From assembly GCF_019308285.1 (NCBI RefSeq), contig NZ_WWEM01000031.1, positions 496,001-560,000 of the forward strand: 64,000 bases of DNA, in the 5' to 3' direction. Positions within the stretch are counted from its first letter, which is position 1. Each line of letters starts with the position of its first letter. The stretch is from Flavobacterium quisquiliarum. Its GTDB lineage: Bacteria; Bacteroidota; Bacteroidia; Flavobacteriales; Flavobacteriaceae. Of this stretch, positions 9,509-58,957 are shown in pieces. The position numbers were made by a program, and so were the translations under genes. A model generated the notes under the pieces. It was not told where the DNA came from. It searched no databases and saw only the letters and a program-made list of their open reading frames with translations.

Positions 9509-9900
9509 CGCCACGAATTCACGAATTACTCTAATTTATATATGCTGTTTAAAACTATTCTTTTCTTTAAATTTCACGAATTATATTCTAAACATGCCAA
9601 TAGTCATTCAGAATAAAAATTAAAATAATTCGTGAATTCGTGGCGGAAAAATTTTCTCATTTTAAAGCATCACAATTGGCATCTTAATAAACATAAGTTC
9701 CCGCTTTCGGCTATATCTCTCCGTTTCACTGCGAGGATACCGCCTCAATCGGGGCTAAATTCAAACATTTGGCTTCTTTTAAAAATTAGGATAAAAAGAA
9801 ATACATTTAATTAGTGTAATTCATAAAAAAACAATTTCAACAGCATTTAAGAATAAGTTAAATTCGTGAATTCGTGGCAAAAAACCTTTGTATCTTTGTA
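9509..9900. repeat. Repeat-filled intergenic region between gltD and lysA
   Basis: No real gene is seen in the 635 bp between gltD and lysA. It holds copies of the GCCACGAATTCACGAATT element in both orientations (about 9511, 9628 and 9862). It also holds, at about 9697-9759 on the minus strand, a degenerate copy of the TTTAGCCCCGAT...GCGGGA element also found at 21802 and 58877. Short open frames here consist of repeat sequence and are not credible genes. Confidence 0.7.
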
Positions 9901-21801: not shown

Positions 21802-21887
21802 TTTTAGCCCCGATGGAAGCGATATCCTTTTTCTTGCTTCTTTAGCAAGGAAAAGATTTAGCGGACAGCGGGACTGAACGTTCTTAT
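21802..21887 (+). repeat. TTTAGCCCCGAT...GCGGGA intergenic element, copy 2
   Basis: This unit starts TTTAGCCCCGATGGAAGCG, has a central inverted pair (CTTGCT...AGCAAG), then GATTTAGCGGACAGCGGGA. Degenerate copies occur at 9697-9759 (minus) and 58877-58957 (plus). From memory, similar units occur in many Flavobacterium intergenic regions. Confidence 0.7.
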
Positions 21888-29848: not shown

Positions 29849-30736
29849 TTACCCCAACCACCCTTCTCTATCCAAACTTCTATATTGAATTGCTTCTGAA
29901 ATATGATGGGAAATGATATTTTCTGAATTATCTAAATCAGCAATAGTTCTGGAAACTTTCAAAATCCTATCGTATGCTCGTGCTGAAAGATTTAACCTTT
30001 CCATGGCCGTTTTGAGTAATTCCTTTGAAGCTTCATCTAAAACGCAGTATTCTCTAATAAGTTTACTGCTCATTTGAGCATTATAGTTTACATTTTCTAT
30101 TGTTTCAAATCGTTTGGTTTGAATCTCTCGCGCTGCAGTCACACGTTTACGAATTTCGACACTGCTTTCTGCTTTTTTATCATCAGCCAATTTTTCAAAT
30201 GGGACAGGCGTGACTTCAATATGAATATCTATTCGATCTAAAAGTGGACCCGATATTTTACTCATATAACGCTGCATATCATGAGGAGAAGTTGTATTGG
30301 GTGAACTGGGATCGTTAAAAAAACCGCTTGGACTCGGGTTCATGCTAGCCACCAACATAAAAGAAGACGGATACGTAATTGTAAACTTAGCACGCGAAAT
30401 AGTCACTTCACGATCTTCTAACGGCTGGCGCATTACTTCCAAAACATCCCGTTTAAATTCTGGGAGTTCATCTAAAAACAAAACGCCATTATGCGCCATT
30501 GAAATTTCTCCCGGTTGCGGGTAACTTCCGCCTCCAACTAATGCCACATTAGAAATAGTATGATGCGGACTTCTAAACGGCCGTTGATTCATCAAACCAA
30601 CTTCTTTTAATTTTCCTGCTACGCTATGAATTTTGGTTGTTTCTAAAGCTTCACGCAAAGTCATTGGTGGTAAAATACTAGGAACTCGTTTCGCCAGCAT
30701 TGTTTTTCCTGCGCCGGGCGGACCAATTAAAATGAT
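29849..30736 (-). pseudogene. comM: comM/yifB, 3' part (interrupted by an integrated element)
   Basis: This is the C-terminal part of a Mg-chelatase-like AAA+ protein: Walker A GPPGAGKT, Walker B-region [11 protein letters not shown], sensor segment and the C-terminal domain ending REGWLG. It is about 294 codons; the 5' part lies at 45856-46508. Rejoining the two through the shared ATGAT gives 512 codons. An ATG at 30757 inside the element could still start a 302-residue product retaining both Walker motifs. ComM is a hexameric helicase that promotes branch migration during natural transformation, so this allele should be nonfunctional as integrated. Confidence 0.9.
30732..30736 (+). other. 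Left attachment junction (attL core ATGAT)
   Basis: ATGAT is the last sequence shared by the comM fragment and the right junction at 45856-45860. To its right, AAATACCA (30749-30756) forms the inner arm of an imperfect inverted repeat whose partner TGGTATTT is at 45833-45840 near the right end. Such arms around the crossover are expected of a large serine recombinase attP. The core assignment comes from alignment of the two ends with a comM reading frame. Confidence 0.85.
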
Positions 30737-30765
30737 AATATAGTAAACAAATACCATTTTTGGTT

Positions 30766-30773
30766 TATCTTTG
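30766..30773 (+). promoter_or_regulatory. Candidate -7 box of the serine integrase gene
   Basis: TATCTTTG fits TAnnTTTG but lies only 4 bp before the ATG at 30778, so any transcript from it would be almost leaderless. No TTG is seen at -33 in the integrated form; in the excised circle the upstream sequence would be the right end of the element. Confidence 0.35.
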
Positions 30774-30777
30774 CAAA

Positions 30778-32550
30778 ATGAAGAAGGCAATTATATTAGT
30801 GAGAGTGAGTACATCTGAACAAGATTTTCAAGCTCAAATACAAGACCTCAAATATTATGGACACTCTTTAGGTTATAAAGAATTTCATATAATTGAAACT
30901 AAAGAAACTGCATTCGCTGATTTGAACCAAAAAATTGGGACCACCGAAATGTTCAATTACATTGAACGGAATCCTGAATACAATACTGTCCTGACAACTG
31001 AGATTTCTAGGCTTGCAAGAAGACAAAGCATTTTACATTCTATCAAAGAATGGTGTCTAAATCAACAGATTCAAATTTATATAAAAGATTTAGATTTCAA
31101 ATTGCTTGATGAATCAGGAAAGATAACACAGCAGGCTGAAATGATTTTCACATTGTTTGGTTTGTTTGCTGAATCCGAGGTAAAACAAAAACTTGAAAGG
31201 TTTCAACGAAAAAGAAAGGAGTTGATGCAATTAGGTTTGTCAATCAGTGGCAAACTTTTGTTTGGATATAATAGAATGATGACCGAAAGCGAAAAGAATA
31301 CGCTTGTAATAAATGAAAGTCAAGCTACCATAGTGAGAACAATCTTCAATTGGTATCTTAATGGCTTGGAAAATGTAAAAAATCCGTCAATAAAAACAAT
31401 ATCACTTGAATGCATTAAGCGTGGTTTCCATTCTTATACTCATAGTAAAAGAAATGTTAACAAGTTACTCAAAGAACAAGCATATACAGGTGAGAAAACA
31501 ACCAACAATAAGCGCAAAAATCCAAAATTTGGTATTGTTTTAAACGAATCTGAATATCTTACATCAGCTAATAAGATTAGATATCCTGTTATTATTGAAA
31601 AGGAAATATTCAACAAAGTACAAGACAAACTAAAATCAAATATTACACAAGGTGATAAACAAACTAAACATATTACCTTGTTATCAAAGTTGATAAATTG
31701 CCCGTCCTGTGGTCGAAAGTTGCAAGGCAACTACAGAATTAATAAGGGAGAACAAAAAAACAGCTATCGTTGTACTAGCCGAGGTGATTCAAAACCTTGT
31801 TCAAGTACTAAATCATTAAGCATGAATCTTATTGACAGTGCTGTTTGGTCATTGATAAAAGCAGATTTGCCTGCTTTATCAAAAGTTATAAATGAAATCA
31901 ATCCTGATAAATACTTATCTCAGCTTGAAAATCATTTACAAAACTTTATTGCTAGAGAAAATGATATAAAAAATGGTATAAATGAAAATATTGAAATTCT
32001 TAAATCAGTTAGAAAGCTCAGAAGTTCCAACATACTTGAACTTATAGATGCTACAGCTAAAAAAATTGAAAATCTTGAATCTGAACTGAATAAAATCCAA
32101 CAAGAAAAATCTAAAATAGAATCCAATAAGTTATTGATATATGACAAGCAATCAAATGTTGAATCAGTAATCACTGATAATCTTCAAACAATAGAAGGTT
32201 CAAAAGAACTATTAAAAAAGTATATAAATAGTTTTATATACTCAATAAACATAATCGAGCACAATGTTAAGCATACTGTTCTTGAAATTGTCTTAAGAGA
32301 TTACAGCTATTCAAGCGATATTCTCAAAATTTTTCCTATACTTAAAGATGCAGAATATATCATACTCGACAAAACAGTGACCAGACAAATCAAAGGTGCT
32401 TATTACAGGTCTAATTTAAGTTCTTCGATATACACAAATCATTCCTCATTGAGTTTAGGTGAAGTAGCTTCGATTATAAAAAATGAACTGAGAGAAAATA
32501 AGCTTGAAATAGGAACTGATTTGAAGTTTAATAAATTACAAAATTTATAG
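30778..32550 (+). CDS. Large serine recombinase (integrase)
   Basis: This 590-residue protein has three parts. The N-terminal resolvase domain contains the nucleophile Ser in [10 protein letters not shown] (Ser11) and the EISRLARR segment. A central recombinase domain follows, and then a Cys-rich zinc ribbon (CPSCGRKL... C... C near residues 310-345) with coiled coil to about 480. It catalyses integration and excision at att sites through a Ser-DNA link. ATG 30778 is chosen over the upstream ATG at 30760 because the catalytic domain begins at once. It lies 41 bp inside the left end, the usual position for such integrases. Confidence 0.93.
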
Positions 32551-34409: not shown

Positions 34410-35312
34410 TTAGTCATTATATTTTTGGTCAATTACTCGACCTGCTGTTTTACTATTGTGATGTGTTGTAAAGGTTTTGGCTTCAATTTCATCATGGGTT
34501 TTGTTGTGTTGTGCATCAATAAACCATTGCAATACCTTCTTATGAGTGTCTTTACGTTGGTTAACAGTTCCCCCTGTCATTTTGTTTTCAATTATCTTAA
34601 CACATTCCGCTTCAGTTATTCTTGATGGTGCAACTTGTACGGGTTCATTGATGATGAACTTTTTTATTATCAGATTTATATTTTCAATGTTTAGCTGGTC
34701 GGCACTTTTAAGCGTACCATTAGCAATTGCAGTTTTAAAATACTCGATGCAATTTTCAATATCGACGTACTTGTCTTGCCTAATTGATTTGTCAATCTCG
34801 TCAAAAATTATATTAGCATAGTCTTTTAAAACTAACGGTTTAACATCAGATTCAACTGCTAAGATTGAACCATCTAGTGGGAGACTTATGTGTTCCGTTG
34901 ATGGTATTTGCTCGGATGGGTCGTATGTATTTTCCACCTCTGGTGCTTCCAATTCGGTAGTTTCCACGGATTCTTTGTTTAGGTTTCCGTATTCACTTAT
35001 TTTATATGTCCACATATTAAAGCGTTTATCTACTTTGGTTTGTATGATATACCCAGCCTTTTTAAGTCTTTTGATTGATTTACCTATTGTATCATCGCTA
35101 CACCCAAATCGATTTGCATACGTCATAACATTAAATATGTAACTATCGTCATCGCTTAGGATGCTAATAATGAGCAACTTATCGAAATGAGTTAGTTTTT
35201 TATTATATAGGATTGTGTTTGATACTAGGCTGAAAGTTCCTGCTTGTCTTTCTTTCACGTGAAATGTTATTCTATTGTACTTTTTTGGTTGGGTCAGTTT
35301 TTTCTTTTCCAT
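34410..35312 (-). CDS. HTH protein resembling plasmid replication initiators, 300 aa
   Basis: The N-terminal half contains a winged helix (DKLLIISILSDDDSYIFNVMTYANRFGCSDDTIGKSIKRLKKAGYI, about 42-88 in pieces), similar to HTH_36-type replication-initiator domains. The C-terminal half is Lys/Asp-rich and helical, with no recognised motif. Replication or copy-control is inferred from this domain and from the long structured intergenic region upstream of the gene. It may instead be a regulator of the element. Confidence 0.55.
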   Translation of the reverse strand: MEKKKLTQPKKYNRITFHVKERQAGTFSLVSNTILYNKKLTHFDKLLIISILSDDDSYIFNVMTYANRFGCSDDTIGKSIKRLKKAGYIIQTKVDKRFNMWTYKISEYGNLNKESVETTELEAPEVENTYDPSEQIPSTEHISLPLDGSILAVESDVKPLVLKDYANIIFDEIDKSIRQDKYVDIENCIEYFKTAIANGTLKSADQLNIENINLIIKKFIINEPVQVAPSRITEAECVKIIENKMTGGTVNQRKDTHKKVLQWFIDAQHNKTHDEIEAKTFTTHHNSKTAGRVIDQKYND

Positions 35313-36462
35313 CTTGTGAGGCTTTATCTTAGCGTTATAATTTTGTCCTTAACCTAGACTAAGAGCTGGGCAGGTGTCGACTCCTGTTTATCCCAGCACT
35401 AGGGATTTTTAGTTAAAGCGGTTTACTCCGCTAGTTATATTCAAGTATACTCATACTCATTGAAAAGGTCAATACTTATTAAAATAAATTGGTAGGTACA
35501 GGTTGGGTCGTTGAAGTGTTGTTTATTATAAGGCACTGACCCATCATAACAAACTATTATACCGTAAAGTGGCGGTATTGCAACAACCCCAGTAAAATCA
35601 TCAATACTACAAAATATGATACCGTAATTTTGCGGTTCTTAACTATATAAGTTATTGCTGGCGGAAGTAGACAGCGGATAACTGTGAGATAAAAGAAAGA
35701 TATGTCTTATGTGGTCTTGATGACCACAAAGACAAGTATAAAGGATAAGACAATACTTCAACACAAACAGATTAATTCAACTCAAAGATTATCAAATAAA
35801 CTCCAACGTAAGGGAAAGGGCGAGCGCAAAGGTTATCTACTAGAGGAAACTCCCACCCCCAGTTAAACACAAGGATAGACTAGCAAGGCAGACGCAGTTG
35901 CGCAGTAAGCTTAGGTACAAAGATTGTCAATACTATTCCAACAAAAGGAAAGACTAAAGACAATACGCTTCAACGTAAAGAGAATCCTGCTCTATCACAA
36001 GTAATATAATAGGAAGAGATAGAGAAAACCCTCTCAACAGGGTCGATGGCGCAAACTGCCCCTAAATGTTATGGTCAAAATACGTCTGTAGCCTTTGCTA
36101 TTACTGGTGTTGCAACGTATCTGTAATAAATAGCTATGATAGAGAGATAAATTAAACCTTATCAGCCGTTTCCTGTACCACTAAGTGGAGTATTGTGTTC
36201 CTATAGAACTAAAGATGCTCCTGTAAAAGCTGGAGGGGGCTGAAAATGAAGTAATCAACCTCAACAGACAATTCAATCCCCCCTGAGTCCTTCCTATCCC
36301 CTGCAAACACTGAGTTTTCAGAGTCAAGTTACCTCCCCCTGTAATGCCCAAAATGTACACATTGCTTCTCCGTAGCTCTGATATGTCCGTAAACTACGCT
36401 GAAAAATTTCTGAGAAAAAAATCCAAATAAATTTTTAACGATATTTATAAGTAAAAGAGACC
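35313..36462. other. 1.15-kb noncoding structured region of the element
   Basis: No credible gene is seen. The region holds an asymmetric hairpin at 35365-35397 (GCTGGG, CAGG, CCTG, CCCAGC) and a second stem at 35417-35432 (AGCGG...CCGCT). Two near-identical 22-bp blocks exactly 60 bp apart (35555-35576 and 35615-35636, each with ATACCGTAA and GCGGT) lie next, followed by the GTGGTC-TTGAT-GACCAC stem (35711-35727). Several CAACGTAAAG-like direct repeats lie near 35760, 35810, 35938 and 35971. Base composition is richer in G and C than the flanking genes. It could be an origin, a transfer site or a noncoding RNA. Confidence 0.55.
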
Positions 36463-36609
36463 ATGAAAATAGTAATAAGCTTTTCTCAACTAAAACAAGT
36501 ACTGAAGACTCAAAAAGTCAGATACCCGCTATCGTTCAAAGCGATGAACTTCACCGATAAGGAAATTGAAGAGTTTTCCCGATTGCTACAATCCAAAGAA
36601 CGAGGCTAA
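36463..36609 (+). CDS. Small hypothetical protein, 48 aa
   Basis: An ATG-started 48-codon frame (MKIVISFSQLK...) is preceded by AT-rich DNA and ends directly in a terminator-like hairpin. It has an amphipathic, basic N-half and an acidic C-helix (DKEIEEFSRLLQ). No family is known. The exact fit to the hairpin is the main support. Confidence 0.4.
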   Translation: MKIVISFSQLKQVLKTQKVRYPLSFKAMNFTDKEIEEFSRLLQSKERG

Positions 36610-36623
36610 GACCTCGCCTTTTT
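36601..36623 (+). terminator. Terminator at the end of the 48-codon frame
   Basis: CGAGG pairs with CCTCG across CTAAGA and is followed by CCTTTTT. The stem starts inside the last codons of the small frame. Confidence 0.6.
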
Positions 36624-36651
36624 GTGCTCAGAAACGACCCAAAAATCCGTG

Positions 36652-36748
36652 AGTCCAGGAAATCCAGGATTTTTCTAGGATAGTTTAAAAAAAACCTGGA
36701 CTATTGCAGTGTAATAATTCATAAACGGTCGTCTAAGGATTATTACAC
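36652..36748. promoter_or_regulatory. Nested inverted repeats before the resolvase gene (possible res/operator)
   Basis: AGTCCAGG (36652-36659) pairs with CCTGGACT (36695-36702), and GTGTAATAAT (36709-36718) pairs perfectly with ATTATTACAC (36739-36748), ending 14 bp before the resolvase ATG at 36763. Small serine recombinases act at such paired sites close to their own gene, and the same sites often repress it. Confidence 0.6.
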
Positions 36749-36762
36749 CTTAAATTTTGACT

Positions 36763-37440
36763 ATGAAAAAATTTGTATCTTATTATCGTGTTAGCCGAAA
36801 AGAACAGGGAGTTAGTGGTTTAGGACTGTCTGCTCAGAAAAGCTCGGTCGTAAAATATGTAGAATCACAAAATGGTGTCATTATTAATGAGTTTACTGAA
36901 ATTGAAACAGGAACCAATAAGCGTGAACGTATAGAAATCCATAAAGCAATTCAATTAGCTAAAAATGAAAATGCGGTTCTGATTATAGCCAAATTAGACC
37001 GTTTAGCTCGAAATGTAAATTTTGTGAGCTCACTAATGGATGCTGGCATTGAGTTTCTAGCTGTTGACATGCCATCAGCAAATAATTTTACTATCCATAT
37101 TTTTTCGGCACTGGCAGAACAGGAAGCAAAACTTATTAGTTCAAGAACTAAACTTGCATTAGCAGAGTTAAAGAATAAAGGTGCATTGCTAGGAACACCA
37201 AAGAATCTTAATAATGAGGCAAGAGCCAAAGGTCTTAAGAAAATAAAAGAAAATGCCATTAATAACGATAGGAATAGACAAGCTCAGTTTGTTATTTTAA
37301 GCTGTAAAGAAAAAGGAATGAGTTACCGTGAAATAGCTACCTATTTAAACAAATTAAATTTCAAGACTAGATATGGCAATCAATTCTTTGCTACAACTGT
37401 TCTTCAATTATACAATAGAATACATACACAATTAGTTTAA
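36763..37440 (+). CDS. Small serine recombinase (resolvase/invertase family), 225 aa
   Basis: The N-terminal resolvase domain starts MKKFVSYYRVSRKEQ, with the catalytic Ser in YRVS (Ser11), and includes the AKLDRLARN segment with its conserved Arg residues. The C-terminal HTH lies near GMSYREIATYLNKL. ATG 36763 is preferred to the in-frame TTG at 36757. It ends four bases past the end of the convergent gene at 37437, so their 3' ends overlap. A role in resolving element multimers or in inversion is inferred. Confidence 0.85.
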   Translation: MKKFVSYYRVSRKEQGVSGLGLSAQKSSVVKYVESQNGVIINEFTEIETGTNKRERIEIHKAIQLAKNENAVLIIAKLDRLARNVNFVSSLMDAGIEFLAVDMPSANNFTIHIFSALAEQEAKLISSRTKLALAELKNKGALLGTPKNLNNEARAKGLKKIKENAINNDRNRQAQFVILSCKEKGMSYREIATYLNKLNFKTRYGNQFFATTVLQLYNRIHTQLV

Positions 37441-40660: not shown

Positions 40661-40812
40661 TTTAACAATAATAATGTTTATCAAAACATCAAATTTAATT
40701 AATATAAGTTAAAAATAGGAAGTTAAATATCAATATTTCAACCTTTTAAGCTTTGTTCTTTTTATTATTTCTATTTTTAAATTCACGCAATATAGAACAT
40801 AAAATAATACAA

Positions 40813-41910
40813 ATGGGAGAACGCAGACTTTACGACCGTAACTTTAAAGAGAAAGCAGTCCAATTAGGGTATAAAATTGGTCTTACAAAAGGCGCACGAG
40901 AGCTTGGTATTAAACCTCCGCTTATGACTCGATGGAGACAAGAATTTCTTGAATTTGGAACAGCAAGTTTCTGTGGACGTGGCAACTGGAGATTAAATAA
41001 AGAACAAGCAGAATTTTCCAAACTAAAAAGGAAACTAAAAAACGAGCTAAAAGAATCAGAACTTAAGCTTGAAATTTTTAAAAGTGCTAGTAAATACATT
41101 TCTGAATCCAACCTTACCATCTATGACTTTATAAAAAAACATTCAGACAAATACACAATTACAAAAATGTGTAAAGTTTTGGGTACAGATAAAACTACAT
41201 TTGACAAATGGAAAAGTCAGACAATTTCGCAAAGACAGCATAGGGTAAATTTGTTGCAAAAAGAGATAACTTCCATATTTTATGAATTCAGAGAGTTGTA
41301 TGGAGGTGCAAAAATTACAGCAGAGTTGCAAAGTAGAGGGTTTAAAATAAAAACAGGTCAAGTGTGTATTCATATGAGAAAACTAGGTCTTGTTAGTAAG
41401 ATTAGAAGAAATTACCGACTTAAGACAAATTCACTTAACAGTCCCTATAAATTTCCAAATATTTTAAATCAGCAATTCACATTCGAAGAACCATGCAAGG
41501 CATGGATATCTGACATAGCCCGAATCCAAACATCCAACGGATTTTTGTTTGTAACAATTATTATGGATTTATATGACAGAAAAGTTATTGGATGGAATCT
41601 TAGTACTGGATTAACTATAAATGAAACAACAATGCCAGCATGGGAAATGGCTGTCAATAAAAGAAAACCAGAGAACGGACTTATATTTCATTCCAATAGA
41701 GGTATTCAATATGCTAACAAAATCTTCAGCCATAAATTAGACTCCTATAAGTTTATTAGAAGAAGTATGAGTCGAATAGGAAATCATTCTGACAATGCTG
41801 TGTCAGAAAGTTTTTTCAAATCTTTTAAATCTGAATTGGTTAATTTAAATATGCTTTTTACCAGAAAACAAATGCAAGAAAAAATATCTGAATATTTTGA
41901 AAACCTTTGA
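40813..41910 (+). pseudogene. IS3-type transposase, inactivated copy
   Basis: This 365-residue product has OrfA-like (HTH plus coiled coil) and OrfB-like (HTH_21, rve integrase core) parts in one frame, not separated by a frameshift. The second catalytic Asp is replaced by Asn: HSNRG where the neighbouring copy has HSDRG. The C-terminal tail of about 27 residues found in the neighbouring copy is missing. The first Asp (ISDIA) and Glu (SESFF) remain. It should be unable to transpose. It lies immediately upstream of the second copy in the same direction. Confidence 0.8.
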
Positions 41911-41926
41911 CGATAAACTTCAGCCT

Positions 41927-43090
41927 ATGAAAACATACGAACGTACTTTCAAAGTGAATGCAGTTAAATTAAGTTATGAGCGAGGTAAGGGACAACTTGC
42001 ATGTCTTGCAAGAGAGTTGGGAATATCTCCAGATAATTTGTACAAATGGCGAAAAGACTTTGAAAAATTTGGAACAAGAAGTTTTCCAGGCCCTGGTCAC
42101 CCAAATTTAACTGCGGAACAAGCTGTAATTACAGACCTTGAAAGAAAAATTAAAGATTCGAAAATTTCTCTTCAAATTTTAAAAAGAGGAACTAAATACG
42201 TTTCGCAAGGAAAAATACCGACTAAAAATTTCATTGAAAACAACAAATCTGAATTTACAATTGCTAAAATGTTAGCTGTTCTGGAAGTATCAGAAACAAC
42301 ATATTATAGAAGAAAAAAGCAAGAAGTTACAGATACAGAATCTCGAGTAATTTTATTGAAACAAGAAATTATATCTATATACTATGAATTTAGGCGAAGA
42401 TATGGATGCTTCAAAATTACAAGAGAGCTTCAAAATAGAGGATTTAAAATAAAAAATTCTTCAGTAAAAAAGTACATGAGAATGTTGGGCCTGCGTCGAA
42501 AAATTAAAAGAAAGTTTAAGGTCACTACTGATTCATTTCATAATCACTATATAGTTCCAAATGTTTTAAATAAAGAATTTACAGTAAGTGAGCCTTCAAA
42601 AGTTTGGGTTTCAGATATAACATATATACAAACAACCAAAGGCTTTTTGTATCTTACTATTGTAATGGATTTATTTGATAGGAAAATCATAGGATGGAAT
42701 TTAAGTACGACAATGAGCACTAAAGCAACAACTTTACCCGCTTGGGAAATGGCTGTTAATAACAGAAAAATCAATAAAGAATTGATTTTCCATTCTGATA
42801 GAGGAGTTCAATATGCTAATAAACTTTTCACAAATAAATTGGATTCTTATAATCGTGTTATCCGAAGTATGAGCCGTAGAGAAAACCATACTGATAATGC
42901 TGTCTGTGAAAGTTTTTTTACTTTTTTTAAAGCGGAATTACTTACTGGAAATAAGTTACTTTCAAGAAAGCAAACCAGAGTCGAAGTATACGAATATATT
43001 GAAAATTGGTATAATAAAAAAAGAAGGCATTCGTTCCTAGGTTATAAAACAATTGAAGAGTTTAATAAATTAAAAACTGAAAATAAGTGA
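41927..43090 (+). CDS. IS3-type transposase, apparently intact copy
   Basis: This 387-residue protein has the DDE triad in place: Asp in VSDIT, Asp in HSDRG and Glu in CESFF, with the usual C-terminal RRHSFLGYKT tail. OrfA- and OrfB-like parts are fused in one frame. ATG 41927 is 16 bp past the stop of the first copy. It aligns with the first copy end to end but with many differences. No terminal inverted repeats or target duplication were found, so it may no longer move as a unit. Confidence 0.8.
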   Translation: MKTYERTFKVNAVKLSYERGKGQLACLARELGISPDNLYKWRKDFEKFGTRSFPGPGHPNLTAEQAVITDLERKIKDSKISLQILKRGTKYVSQGKIPTKNFIENNKSEFTIAKMLAVLEVSETTYYRRKKQEVTDTESRVILLKQEIISIYYEFRRRYGCFKITRELQNRGFKIKNSSVKKYMRMLGLRRKIKRKFKVTTDSFHNHYIVPNVLNKEFTVSEPSKVWVSDITYIQTTKGFLYLTIVMDLFDRKIIGWNLSTTMSTKATTLPAWEMAVNNRKINKELIFHSDRGVQYANKLFTNKLDSYNRVIRSMSRRENHTDNAVCESFFTFFKAELLTGNKLLSRKQTRVEVYEYIENWYNKKRRHSFLGYKTIEEFNKLKTENK

Positions 43091-43595: not shown

Positions 43596-44777
43596 ATGAA
43601 TTGGAAATCGCCAGACCACATTGAGGACAATAAGTATGATTTGCCAGGAAATTGGTTAAAAATAGAATATTTTGAAGCACTAAATATTCTTTTCAGATTT
43701 GAAAATTCACTTCGAGTTTTTGTTTATATAATTCTAAAAAATGAATTAAAGGAAAAATGGTGTGACCTCTCGATTACCAGTGATGATGAAGAGAAGTCTA
43801 CTATCAATGCCATCGCAAAAAAAAGAATTTCGCAAGATAAAAATTACGCTTACTTAGGTTATGTACTCAATAGCCAATTGTTACACCTTACTAGTGGTGA
43901 ACTTATTAGAATAATTACATCTGACAGCTATTGGAAACTCTTTAAAAATTATTTTCTAGGAACAAAAGAAATAATTAAAAACAAGCTGGATGAAATAGGT
44001 AACGTTCGAAATTCGTTGGCACATTTCAGACCAATAAAAAAAGGAGATATTGAATTAATTAAGCAGAATTCCAATCACACACTTTCAGAAATAGAAAAAA
44101 CCATTAAGGATTTTATAAGTTGTCCAGACATCGTCCCAACTAATACAACGGACAATTGGTATAAAGAATTAAATAGTATTGGAAGTTTAGAATGTGACAT
44201 AAGCTTTAAACAGAGTAAGAACGAAGAATGGGTGAAACTAATTTTAACATTTCGTCCCCCAATTTTATCTAGAACAGAATTTTATTCGGGATATGGTTTA
44301 AAAACTCTTAATATAAAAGTAACGCAATTACTGACTACTTATAAAGCACTGACTAACCAAACAATTTGTGTAAACGAATATGTTCCAAGATTACATACTA
44401 AAAGTGATGTATCCATTAACCCTTACAAAGAAATAAGATTTACATTTGGTCGTAAAAATTTAGAAAAAAATTACCCAGAAATAAAATCTCAACTTGAAGA
44501 AATCGTCGAACAAATATCTAATGAAGTTGACCTTATTACTAATGATAATTTAGCAAGAGGGGTTCTTATTGAAGCAACTAACACGCAGATTATTAAGTCA
44601 TCCAGTAAGCTTTACACTTGGGAAGGTTCAAAATTTGAAACGGAATTTGGCGAAAATTCGCCAGTTGAATATTGGGGTCGCTTAAATTATCCGACCTCTG
44701 ATTTTGTTACAGATACTGAACAATACCCTTGGATGCCAGTAACGATTGCTGATGATAAAGAGGATTTACCTTTTTAA
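43596..44777 (+). CDS. Swt1-like HEPN-domain protein, 393 aa
   Basis: Residues about 20-160 match the Swt1-type HEPN pattern: FENSLRVFVYIIL at the start, YLGYVL and a C-terminal GNVRNSLAHFRP. Arg138 and His143 (RX4H) would form the ribonuclease site of HEPN enzymes. The C-terminal half (about 180-393) is not recognised. HEPN RNases are frequent toxins and antiphage effectors. The gene is followed after 58 bp by a membrane-protein gene, and the pair lies against the right end of the element. The RNase activity is inferred. Confidence 0.65.
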   Translation: MNWKSPDHIEDNKYDLPGNWLKIEYFEALNILFRFENSLRVFVYIILKNELKEKWCDLSITSDDEEKSTINAIAKKRISQDKNYAYLGYVLNSQLLHLTSGELIRIITSDSYWKLFKNYFLGTKEIIKNKLDEIGNVRNSLAHFRPIKKGDIELIKQNSNHTLSEIEKTIKDFISCPDIVPTNTTDNWYKELNSIGSLECDISFKQSKNEEWVKLILTFRPPILSRTEFYSGYGLKTLNIKVTQLLTTYKALTNQTICVNEYVPRLHTKSDVSINPYKEIRFTFGRKNLEKNYPEIKSQLEEIVEQISNEVDLITNDNLARGVLIEATNTQIIKSSSKLYTWEGSKFETEFGENSPVEYWGRLNYPTSDFVTDTEQYPWMPVTIADDKEDLPF

Positions 44778-45720: not shown

Positions 45721-45855
45721 ATTTCTTCGCATTTTGATAAATATTATAGCAAAATCAATCTTCGTATTTTAATATTTAGCCTTAATTAGAGCCCGATTTT
45801 ATATAAAATACTGAATATCATTAATTTAAAAGTGGTATTTCTGTGCCATATTTTC

Positions 45856-45860
45856 ATGAT
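45856..45860 (+). other. Right attachment junction (attR core ATGAT)
   Basis: ATGAT repeats the left core, and the comM frame is recovered on its right. TGGTATTT at 45833-45840 is the second arm of the imperfect inverted repeat described for the left junction. The arms' inner ends are about 15 and 18 bp from the core centre. Confidence 0.85.
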
Positions 45861-46508
45861 GTTATGACCTCCTGCTGCCGCAATTTCCATACAACGTTTG
45901 ATGCTCTCCTGACCACGAACATCAGAAAAATCATGTTCTGGAAAATCTAAGGTTTTATAAAATTCTGCTCTGGTATCTATAATTGTGGGCTCAAGAGTTC
46001 CTTTTCCTGAAAAGAAATCGATTATTTCTTTAAGATTGGTAACGCCATAAACATCAAGTCCCGCCACAATTGCTGCTTCTTTTACATTTTGAATAGGAAG
46101 AAAAAATCCTTTATACCCTTCTTCTTTTGCTTTTATAGCGATTGGTAAAGCACCGCGAATAGGCTGTAAACTGCCGTCAAGAGAAAGTTCGCCCATTATT
46201 ATATAGCGTTCAATTTCAGGTGCTTTAATTTGATCTGAGCCAACGAGAATTCCCATTGCTAAAGTCAAATCATACGAAGAGCCTTCTTTTCTAAGATCAG
46301 CAGGAGCCATATTGATCGTAATTCTTTTCCCTGGCAGACCATAACCGTTGTTTTTAAGTGCTGCCGCAATTCTAAAACTGCTTTCTTTTATGGCATTATC
46401 TGGCAACCCTACTAAATGATAACCAATTCCTTTGTCCATGTGAACCTCGATGGTAATGGTTGTCGCTTCTACTCCAAAAACGGCACTTCCGTAAACTTTT
46501 ACTAACAT
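45856..46508 (-). pseudogene. comM: comM/yifB, 5' part (interrupted by an integrated element)
   Basis: The N-terminal 217 residues of ComM are seen: MLVKVYGSAVFGVEA, the lon-like ATPase-associated domain, DVRGQ, and AAAGGHNI, which normally precedes Walker A. The frame continues 23 foreign codons to a stop at 45786. Rejoined with 29849-30736 it gives 512 codons. The lack of any other change in the two halves suggests recent insertion. Confidence 0.9.
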
Positions 46509-58667: not shown

Positions 58668-58876
58668 GGTTTCTGTTTATAGTTTATAGTTTGTTGTTTT
58701 TGGTTTGTTGCTAAGATGAAAGAAAATCTACTAAACTATATTCCTTATATCAAATTTAGATTAAAAATCATAAAAAATAAATTTTTATAGTTTTAAAATC
58801 TAATTATTCATTTTATAGTTGATTAATTTTCTAATTAGATCTTATTTTGAATAGAATTTCTTTTGAAAATGAGTGC

Positions 58877-58957
58877 CCTAGCCCTGATAGAAGTGGAAAG
58901 CCTTTTTTACCGGGGTCTGCTCAAAAGATTGAAGCGGATAGCAGGAAATAGCTCCTT
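58877..58957 (+). repeat. TTTAGCCCCGAT...GCGGGA intergenic element, copy 3
   Basis: A degenerate copy starting CTAGCCCTGATAGAAGTGG and ending GAAGCGGATAGCAGGAAATA sits between the Lrp gene and the lyase gene. The rest of this 340-bp gap is AT-rich with no recognisable operator. Confidence 0.65.

Follow-up and report, generated by a model that had tools for sequence, protein, structure and literature searches.

Why does a 64-kb segment of a Flavobacterium quisquiliarum genome (hereafter the window; genome G000, with 43 contigs totalling 6.17 Mb) contain more than a kilobase of DNA without a gene, and what might this DNA do? When ORFs of at least 60 aa starting with ATG, GTG or TTG were considered, the longest ORF-free gap in the window spanned positions 35313-36756 (1444 bp), the second longest being 366 bp, and was shortened to ~1150 bp solely by a 48-aa ORF at 36463-36609. 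A preceding sequence-only reading had described 35313-36462 as the largest gene-free stretch, a description borne out within this larger gap, and had proposed an origin of replication, an oriT or a noncoding RNA as its function. In our analysis the stretch is made up of two modules, both upstream of the HTH gene 34410-35312: a leader RNA near the gene and, farther from it, a group of repeats, palindromes and hairpins.

The stretch is located inside a ~15-kb element that interrupts a gene which we take to be yifB/comM-like. A short shared sequence, ATGAT, was read at both element ends (~30732-30736 and 45856-45860). Besides the HTH gene and the 48-aa ORF, the element encodes two serine enzymes, a large recombinase and a small resolvase, and has a candidate res site:

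29849-30790 and 45786-46508: ORFs representing the two parts of the presumed yifB/comM-like gene, interrupted by the element
30760-32550, plus strand: large serine recombinase at the element's left end (matches to Pfam Resolvase, Recombinase and Zn_ribbon_recom)
34410-35312, minus strand: initiator-like gene of the HTH (winged-helix) type, encoding 300 aa and read from the leader
36463-36609, plus strand: 48-aa ORF with relatives in other elements
36652-36747, unstranded: candidate res site with inverted repeats AGTCCAGG..CCTGGACT and TGTAATAAT..ATTATTACA, identified by eye
36763-37440, plus strand: small serine resolvase, 225 aa (Pfam Resolvase, E = 1.1e-20)

An integrative element, with the stretch as its replication-control region, is the best explanation of this setting. 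Profile searches agreed with the earlier placement of the stretch between a replication-initiator-like gene and a resolvase: besides the Resolvase match listed above, the 34410-35312 protein was similar to Pfam HTH_36 (E = 7.9e-6) and, in PHROGs, to the families of replication initiation proteins (E = 4.2e-7) and of DnaD-like helicase loaders (E = 9.8e-7).

Several neighbouring features were recorded as well. The 48-aa ORF, candidate res site and small serine resolvase (36463-37440) constitute a module of many Flavobacterium elements. The 48-aa ORF family occurred in 9 of 15 leader loci compared, and was not found at E 0.1 in the other six, which are phage-type or contig-end loci; it was also present in elements where no leader was seen (L041, L042, L045 and L047), and a search of the plasmid collection returned no relative. 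Two adjacent transposase ORFs at 40753-43090, presumably of IS3 type, have an identical domain order (HTH_Tnp_1, HTH_21, rve). A 393-aa protein (43596-44777), possibly element cargo, resembles Swt1-like HEPN with a score slightly under the family cut-off (26.6 versus 27.5 bits). By eye, an ORF of 47-59 aa with a common ELRK(Y/F) motif was seen directly 5' of the large serine recombinase in L041, L043, L048, L062 and L063, and a leader-bearing, prophage-like region of genome G047 (L036, 6440-11330) seems to end at the yifB-like gene that the window element interrupts.

A DNA search of 199 genomes, including the window's own, found the stretch in one other genome, G108 (77% identity), assigned to the same genus. 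Gene order there is as in the window (initiator-like gene, noncoding stretch, 48-aa ORF, resolvase), and the HTH protein has an 88% identical relative with the same upstream region. The two copies are most similar in the part adjoining the HTH gene and at 35640-35830, and least similar at 36027-36200; around the candidate res site (36663-36762), 90 of 100 aligned columns are identical. A block at 36333-36400, between the repeats and the 48-aa ORF, is also closely alike in both and was not seen in L066, a 37-kb IMG/VR contig which retains much of the window region past the leader, namely the palindrome region, two hairpins and the direct repeats. A protein-coding reading of the stretch was rejected, its 54- and 59-aa ORFs being broken by stop codons in G108 and the former also changing frame. 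Five further genomes produced DNA matches of 24-39 bp only (E = 2.5e-4 to 7.8e-4); the one of these that was opened, in G052, falls within a long ORF and was set aside. Searches of phage and plasmid collections with the stretch DNA returned two records of one cyanophage (E = 0.3) and no plasmid. No protein relatives were found in these collections for the window initiator, the L066 initiator or the polymerase-like protein of L048, nor in the plasmid collection for the L038 initiator, nor in scans of viral contigs with the window initiator and with the L074 protein.

The gene-near module was recognised by reading the 5' sides of relatives of the HTH gene. Because the leader belongs to the mRNA of the 34410-35312 gene, it has to be read on the minus strand, which corrects the sequence-only reading. 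Its features in the window are as follows:

35313-35435, minus strand: leader RNA composed of the P0 hairpin and an H-type pseudoknot (matches to covariance models R1 and R2, of which it is a training sequence; covariation; swap test)
35417-35432, minus strand: P0 hairpin with loop AGUAAA (helix 1 of the four-sequence pairing count)
35399-35403 with 35353-35357, minus strand: P1, enclosing P2/P3 (changes on both sides in 5/5 pairs)
35365-35397, minus strand: P2/P3 hairpin (helices 3 and 4 of the 16-leader count)
35358-35364, minus strand: pseudoknot strand S2a, UCUUAGU, abutting P1 (pairing and swap tests)
35327-35333, minus strand: pseudoknot strand S2b, GCUAAGA, ending 14 nt 5' of the start codon
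35442-35472, minus strand: promoter-like site TTG-N20-TATACTTG, 9 nt before P0, with one consensus mismatch

Read 5' to 3', the fold consists of P0, a short A-rich linker, P1 enclosing P2 (P3), S2a, a linker, and S2b at the start codon. S2a, the boundaries of which were set by hand, is a segment of 6-8 nt abutting the 3' strand of P1, and the complementary S2b is positioned immediately 5' of the start codon; since S2a lies inside P1 and S2b outside it, P1 and S2 form an H-type pseudoknot. Three hairpins had been pointed out previously, and all can be placed: 35365-35397 and 35417-35432 are P2/P3 and P0, while 35711-35727 is the core of a hairpin at 35703-35734 in the farther module. Collectively, 19 leaders were found in Flavobacterium elements and viral contigs. 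The loop AGUAAA, or one nearly identical to it, caps P0 in most of them, G-U pairs are present in P1, P2 and S2, and in 19/19 the S2b nearest the gene (or the sole S2b) ends 1-16 nt before the start codon. The S2a/S2b sequences include UCUUAGU/GCUAAGA in the window, UCUGAGU/ACUCAGA in L066, UUCUACU/AGUAGAA in L036, UGCUCUU/AAGAGCA in L052, UUUCCUC/GAGGAAA in L055 and UUUCCUAA/UUAGGAAA in L074; the pseudoknots of L083 (5 bp) and L037 (6 bp) are weak.

The Bacteroidota-type promoter consensus is TTG, a spacer of 17-23 nt and TAnnTTTG. With one mismatch allowed, sites of this pattern were found within the 75 nt preceding P0 in 13 of the 19 leaders, compared to 1.6 expected from mononucleotide shuffles, and the site of the window leader recurs at the same place in G108. 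Being situated just upstream of P0, such a site would make the leader the start of the mRNA.

The leaders were collected with two covariance models. R1 contained nested stems only. Among 27 sources it matched the fold before unrelated genes in L048, L043 and L051 (E = 0.004-0.05), and among the 199 genomes five matched at E ≤ 0.1, including the window's own, G108 and G038, with G032 (locus L074) at E = 0.02. R2 was built from eight matches; the S2 pairs are absent from both models, the S2 columns being modelled as unpaired sequence. Outside its training set R2 matched L052 (E = 2.5e-5), L036 (0.002), L037 (0.055) and L055 (1.5), the last two being weak matches accepted on position and pairing. 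In 111 genomes it gave eight matches at E ≤ 0.0034, located in seven genomes; all eight directly precede a replication-type gene, and four are outside the training set. One more match, in G003 (E = 0.41), has a monooxygenase-like gene behind it and was regarded as a chance hit. No second copy of the leader was found by R2 in the window's own genome. The G047 leader was missed by the R2 genome search. R2 also missed the leaders of the viral contigs L079, L083 and L084, which were found by eye after a protein search. Repeat loci of leaders already included (L067, L068, L078, L080, L081 and L075-L077) were not counted, nor were L082, which comes without upstream sequence, and L089, where the upstream sequence is that of L088. 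No leader was seen before the HTH relatives L061-L065 or the polymerase-like relatives L085-L088, indicating that the leader is not obligatory, although their leaderless status is provisional because R2 missed three true leaders.

Rfam contained no family reaching the gathering score at the leader in the window or at ten other leader loci, where the only families detected, elsewhere in the sequences, were tRNA and Flavo-1; at E up to 5, the region 35200-36800 produced two chance-level matches (E = 1.6 and 4.3). The window itself carries three Flavo-1 RNAs (RF01705) in its 64 kb, at 9693-9760, 21802-21879 and 58876-58952. Literature titles and the openings of abstracts, a sample in which subscription papers are thinly covered, contained no description of this leader, and neither did the examined passages of a 2010 RNA survey (PMC2864571).

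Base pairing in the leaders was compared with that in shuffles. In four sequences (window, G108, L066 and L038), pseudoknot included, 97.2% of cells were paired and 9 of 27 pairs had changed on both sides, neither value being reached in 500 shuffles; sliding the partners by 1-3 columns reduced pairing to 33-54%, and further pair types were not striking (reached by 246/500 shuffles). The 16 leaders that R2 could align showed 95.2% paired cells versus 69.3% when shuffled, both-side changes in 16/20 pairs and 73 cells, and a covariation score of 0.573 versus 0.165 (0/500 shuffles in each case), with further pair types reached by 6/500 shuffles, all of these being counts that lean towards the model structure, to which the alignment was fitted.

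The pseudoknot was additionally evaluated by exchanging partners between 15 non-redundant leaders, with the near-copies G108, L043, L090 and L091 excluded from the swap tests of both partners (G108 and L043 from a further count). The summed score of own partners was 103.0, against 66.5 after swapping (sd 4.28, maximum 87.5), and was reached in 0 of 200,000 swaps; scores of at least 6 were obtained for the own partner in 14/15 leaders and in 27/210 swapped combinations. For the nine leaders outside the training sets the corresponding sums were 60.5 and 41.6 (sd 3.67; 0/200,000). Shuffling of single leaders gave modest values (p = 0.02 to 0.36 for 13 leaders; combined p = 2.7e-6, related leaders being counted apart). 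Conservation of the stems in homologous elements, the check suggested along with the sequence-only reading, has thus been observed, as stems and pseudoknot covary. Of the functions proposed there, RNA is strongly supported by the covariation, as a cis-acting mRNA leader rather than a free noncoding RNA.

In several leaders, for example L036, L051, L052, L055 and L090, another S2b-like segment follows P1 at a distance of 3-12 nt. In a swap test conceived after this pattern was noticed, the own sum across the 15 leaders was 76.0 versus 60.8 (sd 3.91), a value reached by 24 of 200,000 swaps, and scores of at least 5.5 were seen for 7/15 own and 28/210 swapped partners. The presence of a second partner in many relatives suggests a switch. 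Among the 15 leaders, a usable proximal partner is absent in the window, L066 and L038; as read here, a two-pseudoknot switch consequently does not apply to the window copy.

By appearance, 18 of the 19 genes behind the leaders are of replication type: seven are HTH-initiator-like, nine polymerase-like and two otherwise initiator-like, leaving one uncertain. The seven HTH proteins form one BLAST-linked group; the predicted structure of the window member had a mean pLDDT of 45 and was left out of the fold search. The nine polymerase-like genes form one family, in which L048 and L051 match phrog_4756, a group carrying no functional annotation, and the other seven are 51-77% identical to L048. 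A structural model of the L080 protein (the same protein as L079; mean pLDDT 81) retrieved family A DNA polymerases from the PDB with Foldseek (best E = 1.6e-4, TM ~0.3) and viral PolA-type models (E = 8.8e-13), and aligned to single-subunit polymerases with VIA-align Z of 11-13 and rmsd of 3.8-5.8. The phrog_4756-type family (L079, L083, L084, L048, L051 and L090-L092) is accordingly predicted to have a single-subunit polymerase fold and, judging by these models, may serve Flavobacterium elements and phages as a replication polymerase. PHROGs matches mark the L074 and L094 proteins as initiator-like (E = 3.7e-4 and 3.8e-7), and the uncertain L052 protein (470 aa) combines a weak polymerase-family-like stretch with a weak virion-protein match (E = 0.0016). 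Genome G011 holds two leaders, at C12 231871-231974 before a polymerase-like gene and at C34 103334-103440 before an initiator-like gene. The leader search started from an HTH initiator and arrived at a family of polymerase-like proteins lacking an assigned function, and the covariance model may serve as a marker for replication genes missed by sequence families.

The gene-far module contains the following candidate features:

35560-35577, unstranded: imperfect palindrome TACCG-N8-CGGTA, operator/iteron candidate, with similar G108 sites in a longer stretch
35620-35637, unstranded: second palindrome, 60 bp from the first, read from the sequence
35651-35682, unstranded: hairpin GTTAT..ATAAC; L066 has a hairpin with a changed, still pairing stem (by eye)
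35703-35734, unstranded: hairpin TGTGGTC..GACCACA, z ~-6, retained in L066 (by eye)
35757-35974, minus strand: iteron-like array of five direct GTTGRA repeats

The two blocks 60 bp apart that had caught attention earlier extend over 35549-35576 and 35609-35636 and agree at 23/28 positions, and in 40 mononucleotide shuffles no pair of 28-mers agreed at more than 21; each block contains the imperfect palindrome TACCG-N8-CGGT(A/T). Local folding gave z < -2 in 10 of 110 windows of 50 nt (60 mononucleotide shuffles per window), and no local fold in the region was more stable than the 35703-35734 hairpin. The previously described CAACGTAAAG-like units hold up as the five direct GTTGRA cores, a motif picked after inspection, compared to 0.31 expected from dinucleotide shuffles; G108 has four (0.37 expected). 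The shorter core GTTGA occurred seven times in L066 (0.66 expected), six times in L038 (0.74) and five times in L062 (0.75), mostly 460-690 nt 5' of the gene start in L066 and L038. Two or three copies were present in L061, L063 and L036, and the core was not enriched in L037 or G108.

Taken together, the repeats, palindromes and hairpins constitute circumstantial evidence for an origin with operator sites, a candidate of the iteron type. The origin proposed by the sequence-only reading is favoured to that extent, relatives having retained such features; its oriT is not, as no relaxase was detected among 19 element proteins scanned with Pfam (small ORFs were scanned in part). Nothing supports an oriT in the stretch, and mobilisation could occur in trans.

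We consider it reasonably probable that the stretch combines an origin/operator region with a leader whose pseudoknot gates the translation of the adjacent replication gene. The gene-far direct repeats, palindromes and hairpins would be the origin/operator region for the element's initiator, the mRNA of which would start near P0 and fold into P0 and the H-type pseudoknot, with P1 as stem 1, the P2/P3 hairpin in loop 1 and S2a abutting P1. When closed, the pseudoknot would keep the sequence before the start codon in a helix; its opening would admit the ribosome and allow the replication protein to be made, so that the leader acts as a gate. We infer that the closed state is the repressive one because S2b lies against the start codon. 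In many relatives the second S2b-like segment may compete for S2a, giving two mutually exclusive pseudoknots. As to the putative signal, a trans-acting protein encoded by all elements was rejected: no protein family was common to the 15 leader loci (fetched lengths differ and some reach a contig end), which makes one element-encoded regulator less likely than a small molecule, the ribosome or some host factor. More tentatively, and with greater doubt than belief, the leaders could represent a new class of RNA switch of Bacteroidota mobile DNA, in which two exclusive pseudoknots decide translation of a phage or element replication gene according to a host signal (metabolite or ribosome state), and which has been passed as a module between unrelated replication genes. 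Bacteroidia ribosomes do not recognise Shine-Dalgarno sequences (PMC9976891), which raises the question of how leaders gate translation in these bacteria. A conserved pseudoknot that abuts the start codons of replication genes unrelated to one another offers a concrete test object for it, and the leader hints at how Flavobacterium phages and integrative elements may time replication.

Other explanations could account for part of these observations. The structure could act as DNA, either as hairpins extruded from the duplex or as the single-strand initiation site of an origin. It does adjoin origin-like direct repeats, palindromes and hairpins, and covariation of pairs alone cannot tell DNA from RNA; nevertheless, S2b ends 1-16 nt before the start codon whichever gene follows, polymerase-like and other genes carry the leader at the same place, P1, P2 and S2 include G-U pairs, and promoter-like sites precede P0 in 13/19 leaders, which makes a purely DNA-level role quite improbable. 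Harder still to credit is an origin/operator region with the leader as a passive remnant of common descent, already disfavoured by covariation: the window, G108 and L066 are clearly related across much of the region, but changes that preserve pairing affect most pairs and the pseudoknot, across several gene families, and we give this reading hardly any weight.

H-type pseudoknots of riboswitches can hide the ribosome-binding region, and a metabolite bound by P0 and the pseudoknot could close the structure over the start region, as in SAM/SAH. An H-type pseudoknot with an additional hairpin, a P0 loop that recurs among the leaders, alternative partners in many relatives, unrelated downstream genes and the lack of a protein family common to the 15 loci are consistent with such a small-molecule riboswitch. 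It is nonetheless rather unlikely, given that no ligand is known, no set of invariant unpaired nucleotides has been established and, to our knowledge, riboswitches rarely serve mobile-element replication genes only. An antisense-controlled leader of the ColIb-P9/IncL/M type, where translation is switched on by the pseudoknot and shut off by a countertranscript that thereby sets copy number, would fit the gene type and the place of the pseudoknot, and the opposite strand of the window has a perfect TTG-N21-TAATTTTG site. Antisense promoter-like sites were however found in 7/19 leaders versus 7.9 expected by shuffling, with none in G108, and no leader ORF ends near the start codon in the window, G108, L066, L038 or L036. 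Antisense control was dropped as the best reading on the count of sites, and we regard it as unlikely.

The preferred reading, a gated leader next to a candidate origin, has partial counterparts among known systems. Direct repeats upstream of an initiator-type gene are shared with the iteron origins of plasmids and phages, although the repeats here are short and degenerate and their replication role is that of a candidate. The SAM/SAH and SAM-II riboswitches likewise have an H-type pseudoknot, but the leader has no known ligand, no Rfam match at gathering score and mobile-DNA replication genes downstream. The translational operator of T4/RB69 gene 32 is a pseudoknot. As in our leaders, a structured mRNA lies where translation of a DNA-replication gene begins, in this case on a phage transcript, and it controls translation (PMC535899). 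The gene 32 product represses its own mRNA, whereas the products here belong to several unrelated families, making autogenous control by one binding mode unlikely.

Closest in working is the repZ pseudoknot of ColIb-P9, the upstream strand of which lies in a hairpin loop. S2a, in contrast, is an internal 3' bulge abutting P1; moreover, the leader lacks a conserved antisense promoter or leader-peptide ORF, is common to unrelated genes and viral contigs, and has hosts in Bacteroidota. The repZ leader pseudoknot, with relatives in IncL/M repA and IncB, is located like ours in the leader before a replication initiator gene, and titles cited in PMC10724649 present it as a molecular switch for translation. 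Two features of the ColIb-P9/IncL/M family are present here: the initiator gene directly downstream (initiator-like as predicted by PHROGs) and a pseudoknot reaching from a stem-loop to the sequence before the start codon, albeit from an internal bulge. The window leader has no ORF of at least 5 codons ending within 25 nt of the start codon, and at least one such ORF occurs in 9/19 leaders, with no shared peptide except among near-copies. With the leader-peptide feature lacking and the antisense feature unproven, the leader is not placed in that family, although it resembles known rep-leader pseudoknots.
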